Assembly (NCBI GenBank): GCA_020832665.1
Contig: JAFIEG010000015.1
Span: 1-64,000, forward strand
DNA: 64,000 bases
Source of the DNA: Pararhodobacter sp.
GTDB taxonomy: Bacteria > Pseudomonadota > Alphaproteobacteria > Rhodobacterales > Rhodobacteraceae
Direction: 5' to 3'
In this document: in pieces, positions 44,464 to 61,247 of the stretch
Layout of the letters: each line of letters begins with the position of its first letter
How positions within the stretch are numbered: the stretch's first letter is position 1
Made by a program: the position numbers and the translations under genes
Notes under the pieces: model-generated
Told to the model about the DNA's origin: nothing
Seen by the model: the letters and a program-made list of their open reading frames with translations, nothing else
Database searches by the model: none

Positions 44464-45648
44464 TCATACCGCCACCTGGTGGCGCAGAGGCACGCGCTCT
44501 CCACCGCGCGCCGATTGCAAAATGGCGTGGCAAAGCTCCAGGCTGGCCAGCCCCCAGTTTCCGTCCTGCACGACGCGTTCGCCCCTTCGCACCGCGCCGA
44601 TCAGCCGCTCCAGCACGCCGTGGCGCGGCGCGGGCCAGGCCGGGGCGGGCAGGAAATGGCGCTCGGTGTTGGCATAGACATGCACGCCTTGCGGGCTCAG
44701 CCGCAGATCGGCGCCTTCGAGCGAGGCGATGACGGGGCCGAAATGCTCGTGATGCGGGGCAGGGGGCGGGATATCCTCGGCGCCGAAGGTGCGGCGGCGT
44801 TTGAGCGCGGCTTCTTCTTCGGCGCCTCGCACATCGGCAAGGGCGCGCCGCGCCTTTCCATAGGCAGCCTCGTCCTTATCGTGGCCAAGCTCGCCCACCC
44901 AGCCCATCCATTCGTCGCTGTCGAAATGTGCGTAACCCGAATAGGCGATGTTTGCAAAGGCGCCGTTTTCGAAGTCCACCAGCGCGGCATAGGCGCCCTC
45001 GGTGGGGCGCGCGGCATCCCAGGCGCCGGTCATGGCGGTGACCGAGCGCGCCAGCCCGCCGGCGAGCAGGCGCACGATGTCGATCTGGTGCACCGCCTGG
45101 CTGAAGATCACCCCGCCGCCCTGATCGGTGACCAGCTCTTCGGGCCGGCGCGGACGGTAGAGAAAATCGGTGTAGTTGAACGCCTGCACCATCCGCAACC
45201 GCCCATGGCGCCCCGAGGCGATGATCTCGCGCGCCTGCGCCACCGGCCCGTCAAAGCTGTGGCTGGGCCCGACGATCATCGCGATGCCGGCAGCTTCGGC
45301 CGCCGCCACCATGCGTTCGCCATCGGCCATCGACACGGCCAGCGGCTTTTCCACCAGCACCGCCTTGCCCGCCAAAGCGGCGGCGGCGACGTGATCGGCA
45401 TGCATCTGGTGGGGGGTGGCGATATAGACGGCCTCGACCAGTGGATCGGCGCACAGCGCCTCGACACTGTCATGCGCCCGCCCGCCGAAGCGCGCCTCGA
45501 ATGCCGCGCGGGTTTCGGCGCGCGGCGCGGCGGCGGCGACCAGCGCGATGCCCGGATGGGACAGGATGCTGGGCGCGGTCAGCATGAAGCCCCGGCCCAG
45601 CCCGGCAACGCCCAGCCGCAACGGCCCTTCTGCGCGCTCAGAGCTCAA
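44464..45648 (-). CDS. Gfo/Idh/MocA dehydrogenase, dihydrodiol dehydrogenase-like
   Basis: 394 aa. N-terminal NAD(P) fold LGVAGLGRGFM, then IATPHQMHADHVAAA and VLVEKPLAVS, the Lys of EKP being the family's catalytic residue, with a C-terminal domain (GGGVIFSQAVHQIDIVRLL). The phthalate pathway uses such an enzyme (Pht4) to oxidise the cis-4,5-dihydrodiol. Its start overlaps the reductase stop by 11 bp. Confidence 0.85.
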   Translation of the reverse strand: MSSERAEGPLRLGVAGLGRGFMLTAPSILSHPGIALVAAAAPRAETRAAFEARFGGRAHDSVEALCADPLVEAVYIATPHQMHADHVAAAALAGKAVLVEKPLAVSMADGERMVAAAEAAGIAMIVGPSHSFDGPVAQAREIIASGRHGRLRMVQAFNYTDFLYRPRRPEELVTDQGGGVIFSQAVHQIDIVRLLAGGLARSVTAMTGAWDAARPTEGAYAALVDFENGAFANIAYSGYAHFDSDEWMGWVGELGHDKDEAAYGKARRALADVRGAEEEAALKRRRTFGAEDIPPPAPHHEHFGPVIASLEGADLRLSPQGVHVYANTERHFLPAPAWPAPRHGVLERLIGAVRRGERVVQDGNWGLASLELCHAILQSARGGERVPLRHQVAV

Positions 45649-46585
45649 TGACCAGATCCCCGCTTTTCGCGCGCGAAATGCAGATCATGATGTGGCTGTC
45701 CTTTTCGTCATCCATCAGCACCATGTCGCGGTGATCGGCCTCGCCCTCGATGAGCCGGCTCTTGCAGGTGCCACATGTGCCGCTCTCGCAGGAACTGACG
45801 GTGCGCTCGCCGGCATCGCGCAGCGCTTCCAGGATGGTCTTGTCGGCCGGCACCGCGATGCTGCGCCCGCTGCCGGCCAGCGTGACGTTGAAGGCGCGAT
45901 CATCGGCGCGCACCACCTCGACGGGCTTGAAATCCTCGAAATGCAGGCGCCCCTCGGGCCAGTGACCGGAAAGCGCCTTGATCTCTTCCATCAGCGGCGC
46001 CGGGCCGCAGCAATAGACATGTGCTTGGCTGGGCTTTTCGAAATGGTCCCAGAAATCGAAGAAATTGTCCTCGTCGCCCTCGTCGTGATGAATGGTGACC
46101 TTGCCGGGCAGGGCGGTGATCTCGTCCAGATAGGCGGTCTCGGCGGCGCTGCGGGTGCAGTAGATCAACTCGAAGGGCTTGCCCTGGCCGGCCAGTTGCC
46201 GCGCCATGGCGTAGATCGGCGTGATGCCGATGCCGCCGGCGATGAGCAGATGGCGCGGCGCCTCGACCAGCTCGAACTCGTTTTCGGGGGCGGTGAGCTG
46301 GAGCACCATGCCCTCGCTCGCCGATGCGTGCATCGATTCCGAGCCACCGCGCGAGGCCGGTTCGCGCTTGACGGCGATGACATAGTTTTCCGGCGCTGCG
46401 CCATCATTGATAAGCGAGTAGCGCCGCATCGCTCCGGAAGGGGTGCGAATCGTTACATGCGCCCCGGGGGTGAACGGCAATGGCGGCTCGTCACTGGTTG
46501 GCACGAGCGTGAATTCCATGATGTCATCGGTCAGAGGGCGCCGCGAGACCACTGAAAAGTCACGCGTTTCGAGGGTTTGTGACAT
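45638..46585 (-). CDS. Phthalate dioxygenase reductase-type oxidoreductase
   Basis: 315 aa. FMN/NAD(P)H reductase with HVTIRTPSGAMRRYSLIN (flavin site), LIAGGIGITPIYAMA and CCGPAPLMEEI (nucleotide site), and a C-terminal plant-type [2Fe-2S] domain with cysteines in SSCESGTCGTCKSRL and a fourth in HIMICISRA. It carries electrons from NAD(P)H to the divergently encoded Rieske oxygenase. First gene of the minus-strand operon. Confidence 0.9.
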   Translation of the reverse strand: MSQTLETRDFSVVSRRPLTDDIMEFTLVPTSDEPPLPFTPGAHVTIRTPSGAMRRYSLINDGAAPENYVIAVKREPASRGGSESMHASASEGMVLQLTAPENEFELVEAPRHLLIAGGIGITPIYAMARQLAGQGKPFELIYCTRSAAETAYLDEITALPGKVTIHHDEGDEDNFFDFWDHFEKPSQAHVYCCGPAPLMEEIKALSGHWPEGRLHFEDFKPVEVVRADDRAFNVTLAGSGRSIAVPADKTILEALRDAGERTVSSCESGTCGTCKSRLIEGEADHRDMVLMDDEKDSHIMICISRAKSGDLVIEL

Positions 46586-46615
46586 GAGCGCTCCTGCTTG
46601 AGGAATAGCTGAACC

Positions 46616-46627
46616 TTAGATATCTAA
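46616..46627. promoter_or_regulatory. Perfect 12-bp palindrome, probable MarR operator
   Basis: TTAGATATCTAA, symmetric throughout, 31 bp ahead of the reductase start. On the minus strand it follows TTGACA (46635-46640) and lies in the promoter spacer, so binding should repress. Confidence 0.65.
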
Positions 46628-46676
46628 AAAAATCTGTCAAGCACTGGACCGAAAGCCGGTGGCCGGTTAAGCTGAA

Positions 46677-46688
46677 TTAGGTATCTAA
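46677..46688. promoter_or_regulatory. Second copy of the 12-bp palindrome
   Basis: TTAGGTATCTAA, one base from the perfect palindrome, 25 bp before the Rieske oxygenase start on the plus strand. The distance places it near the -10 or transcription start. Confidence 0.6.
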
Positions 46689-46713
46689 GTACACTGGTGC
46701 CAGGGAGGGCAAG

Positions 46714-48006
46714 ATGCTGACACCGGAAGAGAACGATCTGCTGTGCCTGGTAACAGGTGATGCGCCGATGGGGCGGCTGATGCGCCAGCATTGGGTGCCC
46801 GTCTGCCTGATCGAAGAGGTGGCTGAGCCCGACGGCAAGCCGCTTCTGGTCGAAGCCATCGGCAACCGCTATGTCTGCTTTCGCGACAGTGAAGGGCGAC
46901 TGGGCCTGCTGGATGAGTTGTGCCCGCATCGCCGTGCCTCGCTGGTCTTTGGCCGCAACGAGGAATGCGGGCTGCGCTGCCTGTATCACGGCTGGAAATT
47001 CGACGTCGAGGGCAACTGCGTGGCAATGACCTCGGAACCCGAGGGCAGCCCCCTGCATGGCAAGGTCAAACACCGCGCCTATTCGGTGAAGGAATGGGGC
47101 GGCTTCGTCTGGGCCTGGCTGGGCGAGGAAGAGGACATGATTCCCTTCGAACCGCCGGCCTTTGCGCCGAGCGAGGACACGCGCGTTTCGATCCTGAAAA
47201 TCCGCATCCCGGCCAACTGGGCGCAGATCACCGAGGGACAGATCGATTCGGCGCATTCCTCCAGCCTGCATTCCTCGGACATGGTGCCGGCGCGGGTCGA
47301 GGGGGCGGCGGCCGATGACAAGTCGTGGTATCGCCCTTCGACCGACCGTTCGCCGCGCATGCAGACGCAGACCACCAGCTACGGCTTTCATTATGCCGCC
47401 ATTCGCAAGCCGATCAAGAAGGCGTCCACGCATCACTACCTGCGAATCACCGAGTATATCGCGCCCTTCACCTCGCTGATTCCGCCCAACAACAACTACA
47501 ATGTCGCCACCGTCATCGTGCCCATCGATGACGAGACATCGCATTTCCACTTCATCGCCTGGGGCGGCAAGGCCTGCCCATCAACCGAGGACTGGCGCAA
47601 GTTCAACCATGTGCAAAAGGGCATCCATCTGGATGAGCGCTGGGTGTCGAAGCGGCAGCTGCACAACAACTTCCTGCAGGATCGCCAGATGATGAAGCTG
47701 GGCAATTTCACCGGCATCCAGGGCATTCCCAACCAGGACATCGCCATGTGGGTGTCGATGGGCGCCATTGTCGATCGCTCAAACGACATACTGGGCGCAT
47801 CGGATCTGGCGATTGTCGAGTTTCGCCGCCTGATGGTGGATGCCGCCATCAAGGTCGCCGAGGGCGGCGTCGCCATCGGCCGGGAAGAGCCGCGCGTGCG
47901 CCATGTCGACATCTCCTCGAAGGAAGGGGTTTTCCCCAAATCGGTGGACTGGCGCGAAATCGACGGCTCGGCTGGCGCCAAAGGAAAGACCGAAGCCGCC
48001 GAATAG
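46714..48006 (+). CDS. Rieske oxygenase alpha subunit, phthalate 4,5-dioxygenase-like
   Basis: 430 aa. Rieske ligands Cys70, His72, Cys89, His92 (CPHRRAS and CLYHGW) and mononuclear iron ligands in EGQIDSAHSSSLHSSDM (His181, His186). The layout and the run of serines match the phthalate 4,5-dioxygenase type, which takes electrons from a PDR-type reductase such as the divergent gene. Substrate is a family-based inference; related enzymes demethylate methoxy-aromatics. Confidence 0.88.
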   Translation: MLTPEENDLLCLVTGDAPMGRLMRQHWVPVCLIEEVAEPDGKPLLVEAIGNRYVCFRDSEGRLGLLDELCPHRRASLVFGRNEECGLRCLYHGWKFDVEGNCVAMTSEPEGSPLHGKVKHRAYSVKEWGGFVWAWLGEEEDMIPFEPPAFAPSEDTRVSILKIRIPANWAQITEGQIDSAHSSSLHSSDMVPARVEGAAADDKSWYRPSTDRSPRMQTQTTSYGFHYAAIRKPIKKASTHHYLRITEYIAPFTSLIPPNNNYNVATVIVPIDDETSHFHFIAWGGKACPSTEDWRKFNHVQKGIHLDERWVSKRQLHNNFLQDRQMMKLGNFTGIQGIPNQDIAMWVSMGAIVDRSNDILGASDLAIVEFRRLMVDAAIKVAEGGVAIGREEPRVRHVDISSKEGVFPKSVDWREIDGSAGAKGKTEAAE

Positions 48007-48116
48007 GCGCGCGCAGACCCCGTTTGATTGCCGGCAAGGGGCCAACGGCCCCGCGCGTGGCGCATGCGTGGAAAGTGCATAAAAATCAATGCCTAAGGCG
48101 CCTGAAAAGATTGTTC

Positions 48117-48128
48117 TAAGATATCTAA
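48117..48128. promoter_or_regulatory. Third copy of the 12-bp palindrome
   Basis: TAAGATATCTAA, 11 of 12 bases of the perfect site. It stands just upstream of a TTGACT (48135-48140) and about 80 bp before the aldehyde dehydrogenase gene. Confidence 0.55.
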
Positions 48129-48207
48129 ATTTTCTTGACTCGGGGCGGGCGCAAACGATTTACTGATGCCGAGGGAGCCGGCAACGGCTCGGGGGAGAGA
48201 GACGCGA

Positions 48208-49683
48208 ATGGACGGAGATCGCAGCGCAGCGGCCAAAGCGCGCGCATCGGTTCTGCCAGGTCAGTCAGGGCTGTTCTATGGCGGCGCCTGGCACCCCGGA
48301 TCGGGGCGCATCGAGGTGCGCTGCCCGGCCGATGGCAGCGCGCTGGCAAGCGTGTCCAGCGCCGGGCAGGCCGAGCTTGACCAGGCGGTTGCTGCCGCGC
48401 GCACGGCGCAGCGCGACTGGAAGCGCAGCGCACCCCTCGAGCGTGCGCGGCTGATGCGCCAGGCTGCGACGGTGGTGCGCGCCCATGCCGAGGAGCTGGC
48501 GCTGCTCGATGCGCTCGACAGCGGCAACCCCCTCAAGGGCATGTTGTTCGATGTCGAACTCGGCGCCACCTTGATGGAATTCTTCGCCGGGCTCGCGACC
48601 GAGGTGAAGGGCAGCACCATCCCCGCCGGCGGGAACCGGCTGAACTATGTGCAGCGCGAACCGCTTGGCGTGGTGGCGCGGATCGTGCCGTTCAACCATC
48701 CGCTGATGTTTGCGTGCGCCAAGCTGGCCGCGCCCATCATTGCCGGCAACGCGGTGATCCTCAAGCCATCCGAGGAAACGCCGCTTTCGGCGCTTCGTCT
48801 GGCCGAGCTGATCGGCAATCTGTTCCCGCCGGGGCTGTTGAGCGTGCTCAACGGCGACGGCGCGCTGGGTGCGGCGATGGCGGGCCATCCGGGCATCAAC
48901 AATGTCAGCCTGGTCGGTTCGGTTGCGACGGGCCGCGCCGTGATGGCGCAGGGTGCTGCAACGCTCAAGCGCCTGACCCTGGAACTGGGCGGCAAGAACG
49001 CGCTCGTGGTGTTTCCCGATGCCGATCTCGACGCCGCGATTGCCGGCGCCGTCAAGGGCATGAATCTGGGCTGGACGGCGGGCCAGTCCTGCGGTTCGAC
49101 CAGCCGGATCTTCGTGCATGACAGCCTTCATGACGCCATGGTGGCCGGGCTCAAAACGGCTTTCGACAAGGTGGCGCTGGGCGACCCGGCAGACCCCGAG
49201 ACCGAAATGGGCTGCCTTTCCACCGCCGCGCAGTATGAAAAGACGCGCCAGTATATCGAAACCGCGATCGCCGAAGGCGCGCGCATGGTCTCCGGCGGGC
49301 CGGTGCCCGATACCCTGTCGGGCGGGTTTTATGTCCGCCCCACCCTGTTCGACGGGGTCACCCCCGACATGCGCATCGCCCGCGAAGAGGTATTTGGCCC
49401 GGTGCTGTCGGTGCTGCGCTGGTCCGATCGCGAAGCGATGATCGAGGCGGTGAACGCGCTCGATGTGGGGCTGACCGCCTCGGTCTGGACGCGCGATCTG
49501 CAGACCGCGCTGGATGCGGTCAACGATATCGAGGCGGGTTATGTCTGGGTGAACAATGCCAGCGATCATTTTCTCGGCGCCCCGTTCGGCGGAGTGAAAC
49601 AGTCCGGCATCGGCCGCGAGGAGTGTCTGGAGGAGCTTCTTGCCTATACCGAGCTGAAGAATGTCAGCATCGCGCTGACCTGA
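48208..49683 (+). CDS. NAD(P)-dependent aldehyde dehydrogenase
   Basis: 491 aa. Family motifs: VPFNHPLMFACAKLAAPIIAGNA (nucleotide site), LKPSEETPLSA, LELGGKNALVV (general-base Glu), the nucleophile Cys in GQSCGSTSR near residue 294, and EEVFGPVLSV. It oxidises an aldehyde to an acid. The start at 48208 follows GGGGGAGAG; the earlier ATG at 48166 is a weaker choice. It may act on the aldehyde made by the ThDP enzyme, or on a substituted benzaldehyde feeding the oxygenase. Confidence 0.88.
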   Translation: MDGDRSAAAKARASVLPGQSGLFYGGAWHPGSGRIEVRCPADGSALASVSSAGQAELDQAVAAARTAQRDWKRSAPLERARLMRQAATVVRAHAEELALLDALDSGNPLKGMLFDVELGATLMEFFAGLATEVKGSTIPAGGNRLNYVQREPLGVVARIVPFNHPLMFACAKLAAPIIAGNAVILKPSEETPLSALRLAELIGNLFPPGLLSVLNGDGALGAAMAGHPGINNVSLVGSVATGRAVMAQGAATLKRLTLELGGKNALVVFPDADLDAAIAGAVKGMNLGWTAGQSCGSTSRIFVHDSLHDAMVAGLKTAFDKVALGDPADPETEMGCLSTAAQYEKTRQYIETAIAEGARMVSGGPVPDTLSGGFYVRPTLFDGVTPDMRIAREEVFGPVLSVLRWSDREAMIEAVNALDVGLTASVWTRDLQTALDAVNDIEAGYVWVNNASDHFLGAPFGGVKQSGIGREECLEELLAYTELKNVSIALT

Positions 49684-56562: not shown

Positions 56563-56892
56563 TCAGTCGCGTGGCACCTGCACGGTGATGCCATCCTGCG
56601 CCGGCGACATGGCAAGCTGGCGGGAAAGGCGCGAACCTTCGCGTCTCGGTGCTTCGGTGATTTCGAGCATCGCGTCCTCATGATCGCCCATTTCGCCGGT
56701 TGAGCCGTGCCAGGCCTCGTCAACGACGACATGACAGGTGGCGCAGCTCATCGTGCCGCCGCATTCGCCGAGGATGCCGGGCACATTGGCGGCCATCGCC
56801 GCTTCCATCAGGCTCAAGCCCTGGGGCACCGCGGCTTCGATGCGGCTTCCGTCGTGCAATACCCAGAACGCTTTCATCGATTTTGACATCAT
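56563..56892 (-). CDS. [2Fe-2S] ferredoxin lacking the fourth cysteine
   Basis: 109 aa, adrenodoxin/putidaredoxin type: cysteines 44, 50 and 53 in GECGGTMSCATCHV. The fourth ligand should stand in the motif SRLSCQ; here the codon is CGC and the residue Arg91 (SRLSRQLAMSPAQDG). One base (TGC to CGC) separates the two. The rest is conserved, including EMLD-like DAMLEI. It would be the electron donor of the P450 encoded two genes upstream in the same operon. It may bind an altered cluster or be inactive, or the base may be an assembly error. Start at 56892 follows GAGGG. Confidence 0.8.
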   Translation of the reverse strand: MMSKSMKAFWVLHDGSRIEAAVPQGLSLMEAAMAANVPGILGECGGTMSCATCHVVVDEAWHGSTGEMGDHEDAMLEITEAPRREGSRLSRQLAMSPAQDGITVQVPRD

Positions 56893-56900
56893 GCGGGCCC

Positions 56901-58193
56901 TCATACGAACCAGATGTAGAAATCGCGCAGCGCCTCGGGGGTCATCTCGGCGGTTTTCCCGACCTCGACGCGCTTCATGTGAATGTGATGGGCGCAAAGC
57001 CCCTCGCCCACCGCCGCGCAAAGCGCGGAATCTGCCTGCAGATCGTCAAGCGCCTCGGACAGGCTGCCGGCGGTGCCCTCCTTGGCGTCCTGCCCGGTGA
57101 AGCAGTCGCCGCTTTCCGCTGCGGGCAGATCATAACGCTCCTCATAGCCCAGCCTTGCCGCCTGCAGCACGGCGGCGACGGCGGTGTAGGGGTTGGCGCT
57201 GGCATCGGCCATGCGATGCTCGAGCCGCGCCTTGGCGCCGGGCTCGCCGGCCGCGCGCACGGTGACGCCGCGGTGATCGACCGCCCAGTTGCGCCAGTAG
57301 CCCGACATCGAGGCCGGCTGCAGACGCGCATAGGAATTGACCGTGGGCGCGATCAGCCCGGCCAGCCCCTTGTGATGGCGCATCCAGCCCGAAACGCAGC
57401 CAGCGGCCAGCGCGTTCATCGTCTCGGCGCCGCTGTCGGGGCCGTCGGCAAGCGCGTTGTTGCCCGTGCCATCGGTGAAGGACAGGTTGACATGCAGCCC
57501 CGAGCCGCCGGTTTCGGCCACCGGCTTGGGCATGAAGGTCAGCAACACCCCGCGCCTGATTGCGATCTCGCGCGCCATCAGCCGAAACAGCACCAGGTCA
57601 TCGACCGCGCGCAGCGCCTCGTCATGCCACAGCGTGAACTCGAATTGCGGCGCGTCATATTCGGTGGTCATCAGCGCCAGACGAAAGCCCGCCATCTCGG
57701 CGGCTTCCCAGATGGCATCCATGAAGCCGGCCGGATCGGCAAAGGGGCCGGTGCCATAGACCGCGCCGCCCGGCGTGTCATAGGGTTTCAGGCTGCCATC
57801 CTCGGCGCGGGTGAAGGCGTAGCATTCCAGCTCCAGCCCCACCATCGGGGTCAGCCCGTGCCTTTGCCAGTCGGCCACCGCCCGGCGCAGCGCGTGCCGA
57901 CCGGCCACGGCCACCGGCTCGCCGTGGCGATCAAACAAATCGCCCACCACCACCCGCGTATGCGGCTCCCAGCCCTGGCGGATATCGCGCGCCTGCCAGC
58001 GCAGCTCCATGTCGGGCAGGCCGTTCATGCATTCGGTACCCGGCGCGTCGATGATCAGATCCTTGTCGTAATGCACCGCGAAATTGGGCTGGGCAAAGCG
58101 GGTGTAGCCGGCGCCGATCTTTTCCTCGGGCAGCACCTTGCCGCGCATGATGGAGAGATGATCGCAAAAGAAAGAGCGAAGCCTGTCGCGCAT
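56901..58193 (-). CDS. Glutamine synthetase-like gamma-glutamyl-amine ligase
   Basis: 430 aa. GS catalytic-domain motifs: MVGLELECYAF, GGSGLHVNLSFTDGTGN (substrate His), PTVNSYARLQP and LEHRMADASANPYTAVAAVL. The N-terminal beta-grasp is reduced compared with GlnA. Members of this group glutamylate amines (PuuA, IpuC, aniline AtdA1, gamma-glutamylmethylamide synthetase) rather than ammonia. ATG at 58193 is preceded by AGGGA. Its neighbours (P450, ferredoxin, glutamine amidotransferase) suggest an amine substrate. Confidence 0.82.
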   Translation of the reverse strand: MRDRLRSFFCDHLSIMRGKVLPEEKIGAGYTRFAQPNFAVHYDKDLIIDAPGTECMNGLPDMELRWQARDIRQGWEPHTRVVVGDLFDRHGEPVAVAGRHALRRAVADWQRHGLTPMVGLELECYAFTRAEDGSLKPYDTPGGAVYGTGPFADPAGFMDAIWEAAEMAGFRLALMTTEYDAPQFEFTLWHDEALRAVDDLVLFRLMAREIAIRRGVLLTFMPKPVAETGGSGLHVNLSFTDGTGNNALADGPDSGAETMNALAAGCVSGWMRHHKGLAGLIAPTVNSYARLQPASMSGYWRNWAVDHRGVTVRAAGEPGAKARLEHRMADASANPYTAVAAVLQAARLGYEERYDLPAAESGDCFTGQDAKEGTAGSLSEALDDLQADSALCAAVGEGLCAHHIHMKRVEVGKTAEMTPEALRDFYIWFV

Positions 58194-58237
58194 GGTGCTG
58201 TCCCTGTTGTCGGATTTGTCGTTGAATTGCTGCCGGG

Positions 58238-59494
58238 CTAGGCCGGTTCCACGCGAACCGGCAATTCCTTGATCCCGCCCACGAAATTCGAGCGCAGGAA
58301 CCGGTGCGGGCCGGCGGGCTCGATGGCCCTGATCCGCCGTGCCAGTTCCTGAAACAGCACCCGCACTTCCAGCCGCGCCAGATGCATGCCCAGGCAGACA
58401 TGCGGCCCGCCCTGACCGAAGCTGAGATGCCGGTTGGGGCTGCGCGCCAGGTTCACGCGAAAGGGGTCTTCGAACATTTCCTCGTCGCGATTGGCGCTGA
58501 CGAACCAGTACAGAACCTTGTCGCCCTCGCGGATGGTCTTGCCGTGCAGCTCGAAATCGCGCGTGGCGGTGCGGCGGAAATAGGTGGCCGGCGTCGCCCA
58601 GCGGATGATCTCGTCGGCCGCCGTATCCCAGACTTCGCCCTTCTGCATCTGCGCCAGCAATTCGGGCTGGTGGCACATCGCCTGAATGCCCGCGGCGATG
58701 GAATAGCGGGTGGTGTCGTTGCCCGCGGCCACCAGCAGGCAGAAGAAATTGCGAAACTCGGTCTCGCTGATCACCGCGCCGTCGGGGCCGGGTGTCAGGA
58801 TCATGTGCAGCACGCCCTCGGTATCGCCGCGCGCGGCCTTGTCGGCCATCAGGCGCTGTGCATAGTCGTAAAGCTCGGCGCCGGCGGGCGAGTTGAAGGG
58901 CATCATGCGGTACTCGTCGGTCTGCATGCGGTCGAGCACATGATCGGTGAAATCGGGGTCGGTATTGGCGATCAGCGCATCGCCCTTTTCCACCAGCCAG
59001 GGCAGGTCTTCATCGGGCGTGCCGATGATGCGGCCGAGCATGCGCATGGGCAGTTGCCGGGCGATCTCGCGCGTGGCGTCGAAGCTGCCCTTCGCAAGCG
59101 CGTCATCGAGGATCTCGTCGCAAAGTGCGCGGATCTGCTGCTCAAAGCCGGTCATCACGGGTTTCGAGAAGGCTTTCGCCAGCTTCATGCGCATGACCGT
59201 GTGTTCGGGCGGGTCGGTTTCCTGAAAGGTGCGCCGGGCAAGGTATTCCTCGTATGTCTGGTCTTCCATGCGGATGCCGCGCGCCGAGGAAAGCAGATCG
59301 GTCTGCCGGTTGAGCGCCGAGATATCGGCGTGCCGCGTGATCGACCAGAAACCCTGCCCGCCCGACCAGTCGCTCCAATGCACCGGATCCTCGCTCCGGA
59401 GCCGGGCGAAGGTATTGTACGGTGCGCCACGGGTGAATGTGTCATGCGAGGAAAGGTCGGCGTGACCGTCGTCATCGGGGTGCCAGATGGTCAT
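58238..59494 (-). CDS. Cytochrome P450
   Basis: 418 aa, a soluble class I bacterial P450. I-helix LLVAAGNDTTR, K-helix EIIRWATP (ExxR), and haem ligand Cys367 in FGQGGPHVCLGMHLAR. It needs an iron-sulfur ferredoxin and a reductase; the former is two genes away, the latter not in the window. GGAGGA lies 4 nt before the ATG at 59494. It is the first gene of the P450/ligase/ferredoxin operon. Confidence 0.92.
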   Translation of the reverse strand: MTIWHPDDDGHADLSSHDTFTRGAPYNTFARLRSEDPVHWSDWSGGQGFWSITRHADISALNRQTDLLSSARGIRMEDQTYEEYLARRTFQETDPPEHTVMRMKLAKAFSKPVMTGFEQQIRALCDEILDDALAKGSFDATREIARQLPMRMLGRIIGTPDEDLPWLVEKGDALIANTDPDFTDHVLDRMQTDEYRMMPFNSPAGAELYDYAQRLMADKAARGDTEGVLHMILTPGPDGAVISETEFRNFFCLLVAAGNDTTRYSIAAGIQAMCHQPELLAQMQKGEVWDTAADEIIRWATPATYFRRTATRDFELHGKTIREGDKVLYWFVSANRDEEMFEDPFRVNLARSPNRHLSFGQGGPHVCLGMHLARLEVRVLFQELARRIRAIEPAGPHRFLRSNFVGGIKELPVRVEPA

Positions 59495-59569
59495 GCTTCC
59501 TCCGTTGCGGTGCCTGTCCGGCCCTTGCCGCTGCCTCTCACGAAACGTATATTCTGGCCGGAACAAATT

Positions 59570-59591
59570 ATGCAAATGGAAATTGCATGCA
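59570..59591. promoter_or_regulatory. ATGCAA/TTGCAT sites in the divergent P450 promoter region
   Basis: ATGCAA (59570-59575) and TTGCAT (59583-59588) form an inverted repeat 7 bp apart, and TTGCATGCA (59583-59591) is also a compact palindrome. The latter recurs inverted at 61239-61247 ahead of the GntR gene. Palindromes with this ATGCAA core suit an FCD-type GntR repressor. They overlap the amidotransferase start codon. Confidence 0.5.
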
Positions 59592-60306
59592 TATCGCACT
59601 GCTGGACGCCAACACCGATGACTCGGCCTTTGCCGCCCGCCACCCCAGTGAGGCAGAGAAATTTCAGGCGCTGATGGCGCCGGCGGCGCCGGATATGCGC
59701 CTGCAGGGGTTTCGCGTGGTCGAGGGCCATTTCCCCGAGGCGCCGGGCGCGTTCGACGGGCTGATGATCTCGGGCAGCCCGGCCTCGGTGAATGATCCGG
59801 ATGAATGGATCGCCCGGCTCAAGGCGCTGATCAGGCAGGCGGTGGCCGAGCGGGTGCCGGTCTTCGGCGCCTGTTTCGGCCATCAGGCCGTCGCCGCGGC
59901 GCTGGGGGGCAGGGTGGGGCCCAACCCGCAGGGATGGGTGCTGGGCCGGGTCAAATCCGACAATCACAGCCCCGCCCCGTGGATGAGCGCGGCCCCGGCG
60001 CAGATGGCGCTGCATGCGGCGCATAACGAGCAGGTGCTCGCGCCCCCCGAATGCGCGCGGCTGCTGGGCGGCAGCGCGGGGTGCAAGGTGGGGCAGTTGG
60101 CATTGGGCGAACATGTCTTCACCACCCAGTATCACCCCGAGATTACGCGAGATTTCATGGATGAGCTGCTGGACGAACTGGCCGGCAAGGTGCCCGACGC
60201 GGTGCTGGGCGAGGCCAGGGCGGGGCTCGACGGGCCCGAACACAGCGCACTGATGGCGCGCTGCATCGGCGATTTCTTCGCCCGCGCTAGAGCGCGTCGC
60301 GTTTGA
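59587..60306 (+). CDS. Class I glutamine amidotransferase-like hydrolase
   Basis: 239 aa. The triad is Cys96 in VFGACFGHQAVAAAL, His183 and Glu185 in TQYHPEIT. Stand-alone members in amine pathways remove glutamate or assist gamma-glutamylation (PuuD- or AtdA2-like), although others are GMP synthetase-like. Start at 59587 lies in the shared operator region; the longer frame runs into the divergent P450 gene. It faces the P450 operon across about 90 bp. Confidence 0.82.
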   Translation: MHIALLDANTDDSAFAARHPSEAEKFQALMAPAAPDMRLQGFRVVEGHFPEAPGAFDGLMISGSPASVNDPDEWIARLKALIRQAVAERVPVFGACFGHQAVAAALGGRVGPNPQGWVLGRVKSDNHSPAPWMSAAPAQMALHAAHNEQVLAPPECARLLGGSAGCKVGQLALGEHVFTTQYHPEITRDFMDELLDELAGKVPDAVLGEARAGLDGPEHSALMARCIGDFFARARARRV

Positions 60307-60533
60307 CCGGACTCGTCCTGTTCCGAACAGAGGGCATGCGGCCGCCCGAGGTGGGCGCGAATGCGCCCGCCTGTGGGGCGGGCGGGCGCATGCCCGGGCC
60401 GCAAGCGGCCCGGGCGGGATGAAGCCGATCAAACGCGACGTGCTTTGAGCGTTGAGCGGTGGCCGGAGAGACGGGTTTTGCAAAGGCCGTCCCAAGCGAT
60501 TTCGAAATCGCGGGGCAAGCGCCTTGCAAAGGC
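60291..60533. repeat. Nested palindromic intergenic element
   Basis: Outer arms AGCGCGTCGCGTTTGACC (60291-60308) and 60427-60444 pair at 16 of 18 bases. Inside are 17-bp arms (60332-60348 with 60379-60395, one mismatch) and a 10-bp hairpin CCCGGGCCGC/GCGGCCCGGG (60393-60414). Further on are a perfect 16-bp palindrome GCGATTTCGAAATCGC (60496-60511) and a direct repeat TTGCAAAGGC (60478-60487, 60524-60533). The style is that of repeated extragenic elements in alphaproteobacteria. Its left arm covers the end of the amidotransferase gene. Confidence 0.65.
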
Positions 60534-60547
60534 TGCCCCGCGCCGGC

Positions 60548-61222
60548 TCAGCCGAGCGCGGTGAGCAGATCCATCGCCGTGACCTGATCGAACTGCACAT
60601 GCCGGCGCATCGTCTCTTCCGCGCCGGCGCTGTCGCGCGCCACGATCAGCGTGGCGATGGCGCGGTGGTCGCGCACCGAGGCCCTGATCGAACCGGCATA
60701 GGCGTAGCGCGCGCGGTAATAGGCCATCAGCTTGCGCGCATTTGTCTTGATCAGATCGAGCAGGAAAGGGTTGCCTGCCGCCTCGGCGACGGTGGCGTGA
60801 AAGCGCAGGTTGAGCTGGTAATAGGCCTCGGGTGCGGTTTCGCCCTTTCCGGCCAGATGCGCCTCGCAGGCCGTCACTGCCGCTTCCAGCTGTGCCGAAA
60901 AACTGGCCGAAAGGCGCCTTGCCGCCAGCCCCGCGGCCTGCCCTTCGAGCTTGGCATGCACTTCGAGAATCGCCAGGAATTCTTCCAGCGTCGGCTTGAA
61001 CACCGCCGCCCCCCGGCGCGGCAGACGGCGCAGCAGGCCCGTGGCCTCGATGCGGATGAGCGCTTCGCGCACGGGTGTGCGCGAGACGCCGAATTCGGCG
61101 GCCAGCGCCGCCTCGTCGATCTCATCACCCGGGTTCAGCCGGCCTGCATCGATCCACTCATGCAGGCTGCGCACGATGGTTTCGGTCTGGCTGGCCATCG
61201 GTCTTCCTGCTGCGTCTTGCAT
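60548..61222 (-). CDS. GntR-family regulator with FCD domain
   Basis: 224 aa. Winged helix (IVRSLHEWIDAGRLNPGDEID, EFGVSRTPVREALIRIEATGLL) and an FCD effector domain with the metal-binding HAKLEGQAAGLAARRL, LRFHATVAEAAGN and RDHRAIATLI histidines. FCD regulators bind small acids or amine-derived metabolites. It is encoded convergently with the amidotransferase and is the likely repressor of the P450 island. Confidence 0.88.
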   Translation of the reverse strand: MQDAAGRPMASQTETIVRSLHEWIDAGRLNPGDEIDEAALAAEFGVSRTPVREALIRIEATGLLRRLPRRGAAVFKPTLEEFLAILEVHAKLEGQAAGLAARRLSASFSAQLEAAVTACEAHLAGKGETAPEAYYQLNLRFHATVAEAAGNPFLLDLIKTNARKLMAYYRARYAYAGSIRASVRDHRAIATLIVARDSAGAEETMRRHVQFDQVTAMDLLTALG

Positions 61223-61247
61223 ATTTTAGCGCAGGCTGTGCATGCAA
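61217..61247. promoter_or_regulatory. TTGCAT/ATGCAA sites at the GntR gene start
   Basis: TTGCAT (61217-61222) at the start codon and TGCATGCAA (61239-61247) 16 bp further upstream, the latter the inverse of TTGCATGCA in the P450 divergent region. Suggests autoregulation. Confidence 0.45.

Follow-up and report, generated by a model that had tools for sequence, protein, structure and literature searches.

A P450, glutamine synthetase-like and amidotransferase gene cassette of Pararhodobacter sp. and its candidate role in arylethylamine catabolism

A 64,000-nucleotide stretch of Pararhodobacter sp. DNA (GenBank assembly GCA_020832665.1, contig JAFIEG010000015.1, positions 1 to 64,000; hereafter the window) carries a compact cassette encoding a cytochrome P450, a glutamine synthetase (GS)-like protein, a [2Fe-2S] ferredoxin, a class I glutamine amidotransferase (GATase)-like protein and a GntR/FCD regulator. 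A first-pass annotation, made from the letters of the window, had proposed an amine as the substrate. Its class is likely that of an arylethylamine feeding homoprotocatechuate meta-cleavage, a class absent from that annotation; the genomic evidence for this assignment is the subject of the present report.

The cassette and its shared promoter region

The features of the cassette are as follows.

56563-56892, minus strand: [2Fe-2S] ferredoxin, third gene of the operon, starting 8 bases past the GS stop (Pfam Fer2, 32.4 bits against a cut-off of 21)
56901-58193, minus strand: GS-like protein of 430 aa, predicted gamma-glutamyl amine ligase (Pfam Gln-synt_C, 225.6 bits)
58238-59494, minus strand: cytochrome P450 of 418 aa, predicted ring hydroxylase (Pfam p450)
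59495-59586: shared divergent promoter region of the P450 and GATase genes, with the conserved site AAATATGYAAA at 59566-59576 (AATTATGCAAA)
59587-60306, plus strand: class I GATase-like protein, predicted gamma-glutamyl amide hydrolase (Pfam GATase and Peptidase_C26)
60548 to 61198 or 61222, minus strand: GntR/FCD regulator (Pfam GntR and FCD)

Coordinates, a common strand, short gaps (44 and 8 bases) and Pfam matches all agree with the earlier assignment of the P450, GS-like and ferredoxin genes, in that order, to one operon. This operon had also been described as facing the GATase and regulator genes. Both of those genes are present, and both have Pfam support, but the operon and the GATase gene stand back to back across a 92-base intergenic region; it is the GntR/FCD gene that converges with the GATase gene. 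By eye, the flanking translations resemble a nucleotide-sugar epimerase/dehydratase and GyrA, and the cassette thus sits among unrelated genes.

At no more than one mismatch, the site AAATATGYAAA is present in 72 of the 92 distinct stretches between P450 and GATase genes versus 0.6% of single-base shuffles, a figure that is descriptive, as the motif was picked from those same 92 regions. A second copy in the window (AAATATGCAAG, 61216-61226) is found immediately before Met9 of the regulator. This second Met (61198) is probably the true start of the protein, since the GntR relative at locus L070 begins at the equivalent position. As a general feature, a site before the GntR gene proved weak and was set aside: 9 of 71 cases, the window counted, have one at up to two mismatches (versus 1.2% of shuffles), and at up to one mismatch the window alone does (1/71). 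The GntR/FCD protein is likely the switch of the cassette.

Conservation of the gene set and of its active-site residues

Among 198 genomes of the family, counting that of the window, GS was called at E 1e-60 or better in 45 and the P450 at E 1e-110 or better in 44. Both were found in 43, GS only in 2, P450 only in 1 (a fragment at a contig end) and neither in 152, such that presence was concordant in 195 of the 198. The comparative search for the gene set, suggested in the first-pass annotation, was run on two collections of loci. In 46 loci with a GS ortholog (2 from plasmid records, and some of them short contigs), 43 have the P450 and 40 the GATase, against 22 for GntR and 21 for ferredoxin (6 kb off in L040). 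In a second set, taken from named genomes and made up of the best-scoring and thus closest 80 of at least 506 relatives, which shares some contigs with the first, the corresponding counts were 79 (P450), 78 (GATase), 53 (GntR) and 59 (ferredoxin). Since the partners are kept across both sets, the five-gene arrangement is not a chance one, and the presence in the 198 genomes together with the 80-locus counts refutes the notion of a cassette private to the window genome, the outcome that would have told against the first-pass annotation by its own criterion.

Cassette-bearing laboratory roseobacters include Ruegeria pomeroyi (L130) and Ruegeria sp. TM1040 (L039). Gene order varies, with GATase downstream of GS in L054 and L059 and GntR moved in L068. 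At L078, a GS from another clade (50% identity) is paired with the usual P450 (77%), which suggests functional coupling of the two. Outside the family GS is rare: a search of 385 genomes of the class, that of the window among them, gave 8 further ones. At L058, by size and content on the same contig as L140, GS is kept without P450 while GATase and GntR still adjoin; the GS of L050 also stands without P450.

Residues Glu130, Glu132, Glu187, Glu194, His243 and Arg/Glu332-336 of the GS-like protein, which we take to belong to the GS active site, are invariant in 29 aligned sequences. The protein scores below the cut-offs of glutamine synthetase type I (138.6 versus 429 bits) and type III (188 versus 470), so that a plain ammonia-assimilating role was set aside; it also falls below that of the PuuA equivalog NF045547 (186.9 versus 650). 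By sequence, its closest PDB entry is glutamate-methylamine ligase (9qur). The predicted structure (pLDDT 87.8) adopts a GS fold, with the 1-naphthylamine GS NpaA1 (8wwu/8wwv) among the fold matches. The whole window genome, G000, holds nine Gln-synt_C matches, an expansion of GS-like ligases in this organism.

In the P450, Cys368, Asp261-Thr262 and Glu296/Arg299, presumably the heme cysteine, the acid-alcohol pair and the ExxR residues, respectively, are invariant in 17 sequences. Its nearest PDB relatives are of CYP125: identity to the reconstructed CYP125MRCA is 40%, and the listed natural structures of the family share 31-33%. As P450 families are named at about 40% identity or more to named natural members, the latter values place the protein outside CYP125; given this distance and the aromatic genome context, a role as steroid hydroxylase was set aside. 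The morpholine/piperidine P450s MorA and PipA are, we assume, CYP151.

For the GATase-like protein, Cys96, His183 and Glu185 are invariant in 15 of 15 sequences, and gamma-glutamyl peptidase 1 is its top hit in the PDB (E 4.4e-22). Its adjacency and intact Cys-His-Glu set, as read from sequence, fit a putative gamma-glutamyl amide hydrolase of the aniline-pathway type. The reductase described earlier as missing is indeed absent from the cassette of the window, yet ferredoxin reductase homologues are encoded elsewhere in the genome (contigs C87 and C71, 58% and 49% identity), and in other lineages a reductase adjoins the cassette.

Association with homoprotocatechuate meta-cleavage genes

The window genome is a draft of 157 contigs. 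Contig C135 carries contiguous hpaHGDEF homologues, with HpaD at 383 bits against a cut-off of 321, which points to a homoprotocatechuate meta-cleavage pathway; C130 carries an aminotransferase-IclR-TctC-aldehyde dehydrogenase-Tm1 run and C55 a decarboxylase homologue (63% identity). For HpaB, no PF03241 match was found at E 1e-10 in this draft. With hpa, aminotransferase-block, decarboxylase and reductase homologues all found, the genome contains, at different places, candidate genes for the proposed steps from tyrosine to the product of hpaH.

Three gene groups recur near the cassette in relatives: (i) an aminotransferase block (class III aminotransferase with IclR, TctCBA, aldehyde dehydrogenase and Tm-1-like genes), (ii) the hpa meta-cleavage operon and (iii) an aromatic amino acid decarboxylase. 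In the 80-locus set, the aminotransferase is present in 34, hpaD in 10 and the decarboxylase, within 10 kb, in 12. The Tm-1-like protein recurs with the aminotransferase-TctCBA-aldehyde dehydrogenase block in 25 of these loci (L039, L075 and L116 among them). Such linkage is illustrated by L075, where one strand reads aminotransferase-hpaF-E-D-G-H-P450-GS-ferredoxin-TctC-B-A-Tm1; here HpaD and HpaE exceed their curated cut-offs, HpaH falls slightly under (342 versus 351.5 bits), and HpaF and HpaG fall well under. In L102, L106, L113 and L162, hpaG and hpaD enclose the decarboxylase gene, which in L132 adjoins hpaD at the locus edge. In genomes G145 and G176, it lies between hpaD and hpaG near the cassette, and P450, GS, GATase, aminotransferase, hpa genes and decarboxylase fall within about 40 kb; G104 is alike, with no decarboxylase seen in it. 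The nearest PDB relatives of the L063 decarboxylase are DOPA and tyrosine decarboxylases.

Co-occurrence points the same way. HpaD above its cut-off was found in 38 of 45 GS-positive versus 26 of 153 GS-negative genomes (Fisher, 1e-16) and, among the 86 aminotransferase-positive genomes, in 37 of 43 versus 22 of 43 (p 0.0009), both p-values being optimistic in that the genomes are related rather than independent. Among the 38 genomes with both cassette and hpaD, the latter is on the GS contig in 18 and within 25 kb of GS in 9; 33 of the 38 are without HpaB.

Beyond the family, one distant alphaproteobacterial genus is represented by four genomes, all of which place an HpaE-like aldehyde dehydrogenase and an FAH gene ahead of P450-GS-ferredoxin (4/4), with a pyridoxal phosphate-dependent decarboxylase also there in 3 of the 4. 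The two loci examined closely (L193 and L196) also encode a LigB-type dioxygenase, an ADC-like protein and a ferredoxin reductase. In two further families (L197 and L198) P450-GS adjoins hpa genes; L200 carries a decarboxylase. A Novosphingobium plasmid pairs P450-GS with the same LigB, FAH, aldehyde dehydrogenase and ADC-like genes. On a Streptomyces canus plasmid, GS (34%), P450 (40%), a small ferredoxin, a reductase and ADC-like, aldehyde dehydrogenase and FAH genes accompany a dioxygenase annotated as 3,4-dihydroxyphenylacetate 2,3-dioxygenase; a decarboxylase was sought on this plasmid and not found. In the part of an Embleya record that was read, GS, P450 and the ADC-like gene occur together. 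The two ring-cleavage dioxygenase families paired with P450-GS differ in fold, and no other observation speaks as strongly for catechol preparation by the pair as its recurrence with both.

The annotation of catechol 1,2-dioxygenase in L040 and L041 was rejected, the proteins instead matching the LigB/HpaD_Fe family, below its cut-off. L041, on the Streptomyces lunaelactis plasmid pSLUN1, also encodes GS, a gamma-glutamyl-GABA hydrolase family protein, FAH, aldehyde dehydrogenase and ADC-like proteins beside its LigB dioxygenase, with no related P450 within the 25 kb read. This set possibly applies the scheme to an amine that carries the catechol group from the outset.

A proposed glutamylation-dependent route and its alternatives

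With somewhat better than even confidence, we read the cassette as the upper part of arylethylamine catabolism, most likely that of tyramine. We infer every reaction, the substrate and the order of steps from gene presence, conservation, conserved residues, co-occurrence and co-localisation. The GS-like enzyme would couple the glutamate gamma-carboxyl group to tyramine or a close arylethylamine at the expense of ATP. The P450, receiving electrons via the ferredoxin and a reductase encoded elsewhere, would then hydroxylate the ring next to the phenolic hydroxyl, giving gamma-glutamyl-dopamine or an analogue, and the GATase-like hydrolase would cleave the amide, releasing dopamine and glutamate. 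Conversion of dopamine to 3,4-dihydroxyphenylacetate would fall to a class III aminotransferase and an aldehyde dehydrogenase, after which HpaD would open the ring ahead of further degradation by HpaE/F/G/H. The glutamylate-oxidise-deglutamylate sequence proposed in the first-pass annotation fits most of the findings.

In HpaBC-initiated degradation of 4-hydroxyphenylacetate and tyramine, the ring is hydroxylated by HpaBC at the acid stage. The cassette shares the same type of lower pathway (hpaD to hpaH) with that route and differs from it in the proposed hydroxylation of the glutamylated amine by a P450, consistent with the lack of an HpaB match in the window genome. We consider it an even call that the genes define a glutamylation-dependent P450 pathway for tyrosine-derived tyramine, in which a P450 acts on the ring of the gamma-glutamyl amide in place of HpaBC, spread over two phyla and in at least two combinations with unrelated extradiol dioxygenases. 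No description of such a pathway appeared among the matches listed in the open-access literature searched, a search that left subscription papers and preprints outside.

The parallels drawn earlier with aniline and with morpholine/piperidine catabolism both held up. In the aniline (AtdA1-A5) and 1-naphthylamine (NpaA1-A5) systems, a GS-like ligase gamma-glutamylates the aromatic amine, an oxygenase acts next and a GAT-like hydrolase is co-encoded (PMC4539516 and PMC11335346). The cassette likewise pairs GS-like and GAT-like genes with an oxygenase; the GS model matches the NpaA1 fold among others. There, a Rieske-type dioxygenase turns the glutamylated amine into a catechol, whereas the operon described here carries a P450 and ferredoxin in its place, as the first-pass annotation had noted, and no two-component Rieske dioxygenase; separate transamination and hpa ring-cleavage genes are, moreover, predicted downstream for the cassette. 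By its gene content the cassette would thus be a variant of glutamylation-dependent amine oxidation, one of aniline-type logic with a different oxygenase. By analogy with the aniline system (PMC4539516 and PMC11335346), glutamylation would mask the charge of the amine and offer the P450 a carboxylate handle.

The actinobacterial morpholine/piperidine P450 loci (MorA/PipA) have cyclic aliphatic amines as their known substrates. In Gulosibacter, P450, ferredoxin and GS genes are neighbours by locus-tag number, the GS genes adjoining the P450 genes pipA and bioI (PMC9477822). The cassette resembles these loci in joining the same three genes; unlike them, it has a P450 nearest CYP125 and a tie to ring cleavage, a link that does not appear in the passages of PMC9477822 consulted. 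With the gamma-glutamyl amine ligases PuuA, PauA and GMAS (PMC10606097), which work alongside hydrolases of the PuuD/PauD type, the cassette GS shares its fold, its best PDB match being of the glutamate-methylamine ligase kind; in the PuuA and PauA pathways oxidation falls to the PuuB/PauB oxidoreductases, as opposed to a P450, and the window GS reaches 187 of the 650 bits required of PuuA.

Several observations weigh against the tyramine proposal, beyond the overstatement of the p-values by relatedness. HpaD lies more than 25 kb off or on another contig in 29 of the 38 genomes, that of the window included, and 7 of the 45 GS-positive genomes, among them the well-assembled G003 and G110, lack hpaD above the cut-off. 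Twenty genomes have hpaD without either the cassette or hpaB, and so another way to the catechol exists in them; 5 of the 12 examined of these 20 have a decarboxylase in the hpa operon, making the decarboxylase-hpa link independent of the cassette. HpaB is not depleted in cassette genomes (5/45 versus 14/153, p 0.77), on account of which we dropped the idea of the P450 as a simple HpaB substitute in mutual exclusion with it. With 127-137 bits, the LigB-type dioxygenases at cassette loci stay below the HpaD_Fe cut-off (316), so that their exact catechol is uncertain. GATase was not found near the cassette in L040, L075, L193-L196 and L204, nor is ferredoxin always adjacent, and GS lacks an adjacent P450 in L050, L058 and L077 (the last, from G145, has the P450 at a distance of about 25 kb).

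Two side observations were made in other genomes. In the single-contig genome G003, a class III aminotransferase match at G003:C1:2401701-2403044 contains one in-frame stop. At L174, L175, L179, L181 and L182, which have no cassette and no HpaB match, the aromatic amino acid decarboxylase lies between hpaD and hpaG, an arrangement that suggests direct catabolism of L-DOPA or dopamine.

The alternative that survives best, although we hold it clearly less probable than tyramine, keeps the same logic for another aromatic amine, e.g., phenethylamine, 3-methoxytyramine (the P450 then being an O-demethylase), octopamine or a plant amine. The genome context, after all, indicates only an amine whose product reaches catechol cleavage, and the LigB-type sets may act on other catechols. 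Against this stand the HpaD and HpaE of L075, which exceed the cut-offs of the homoprotocatechuate pathway, a hydroxylation level that tyramine reaches by a single ring hydroxylation, and the resemblance of the linked decarboxylase to tyrosine and DOPA decarboxylases. It is rather improbable, in our estimation, that the order or roles differ, the P450 acting on the free amine or on 4-hydroxyphenylacetate in place of HpaB while GS and GATase merely assimilate or detoxify the amine. The lack of HpaB in 33 of the 38 genomes with cassette and hpaD would suit that arrangement, as would the aniline GAT-like enzyme, which stops the build-up of toxic glutamylated amine (PMC4539516). GS and P450 are, however, nearly inseparable (43 of the 46 genomes with either) and neighbours across lineages, and the undepleted hpaB speaks against such a replacement. 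A non-aromatic amine, as in the actinobacterial morpholine/piperidine loci, with the hpa association reflecting shared catabolic islands, would accord with the existence of P450-GS-ferredoxin neighbours of that type (PMC9477822) and with the distance of most hpaD genes from the cassette (9/38 within 25 kb), but is highly improbable given that the ring-cleavage linkage recurs with two unrelated dioxygenase families in two phyla.

Should the tyramine proposal be true, glutamylation would have a further use in fitting amines to oxygenases, in this case a P450 rather than a Rieske enzyme, and a function would be assigned to recurrent P450, GS-like and GATase families that are generically annotated in the record seen. 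The proposal also predicts a biogenic-amine route in marine and freshwater bacteria and a P450 that hydroxylates tyramine-type rings regioselectively, and annotations of these genes as nitrogen assimilation would need correcting.

Two minor features of the window lie outside this argument. The gap between the convergent GATase and GntR genes holds nested inverted repeats at 60291-60444, with outer arms of 28 nt (60291-60318 and 60417-60444, 82% complementary) and inner arms of 17 nt (60332-60348 and 60379-60395, 94% complementary), perhaps a terminator or a repeated element. At 45638-49683, 7 kb off the cassette, translations indicate a separate catabolic group beside a TAXI-TRAP transporter, with a Rieske-type oxygenase (46714-48006, plus strand), a divergent phthalate-reductase-like gene (45638-46585, minus strand) and an aldehyde dehydrogenase (48166-49683).

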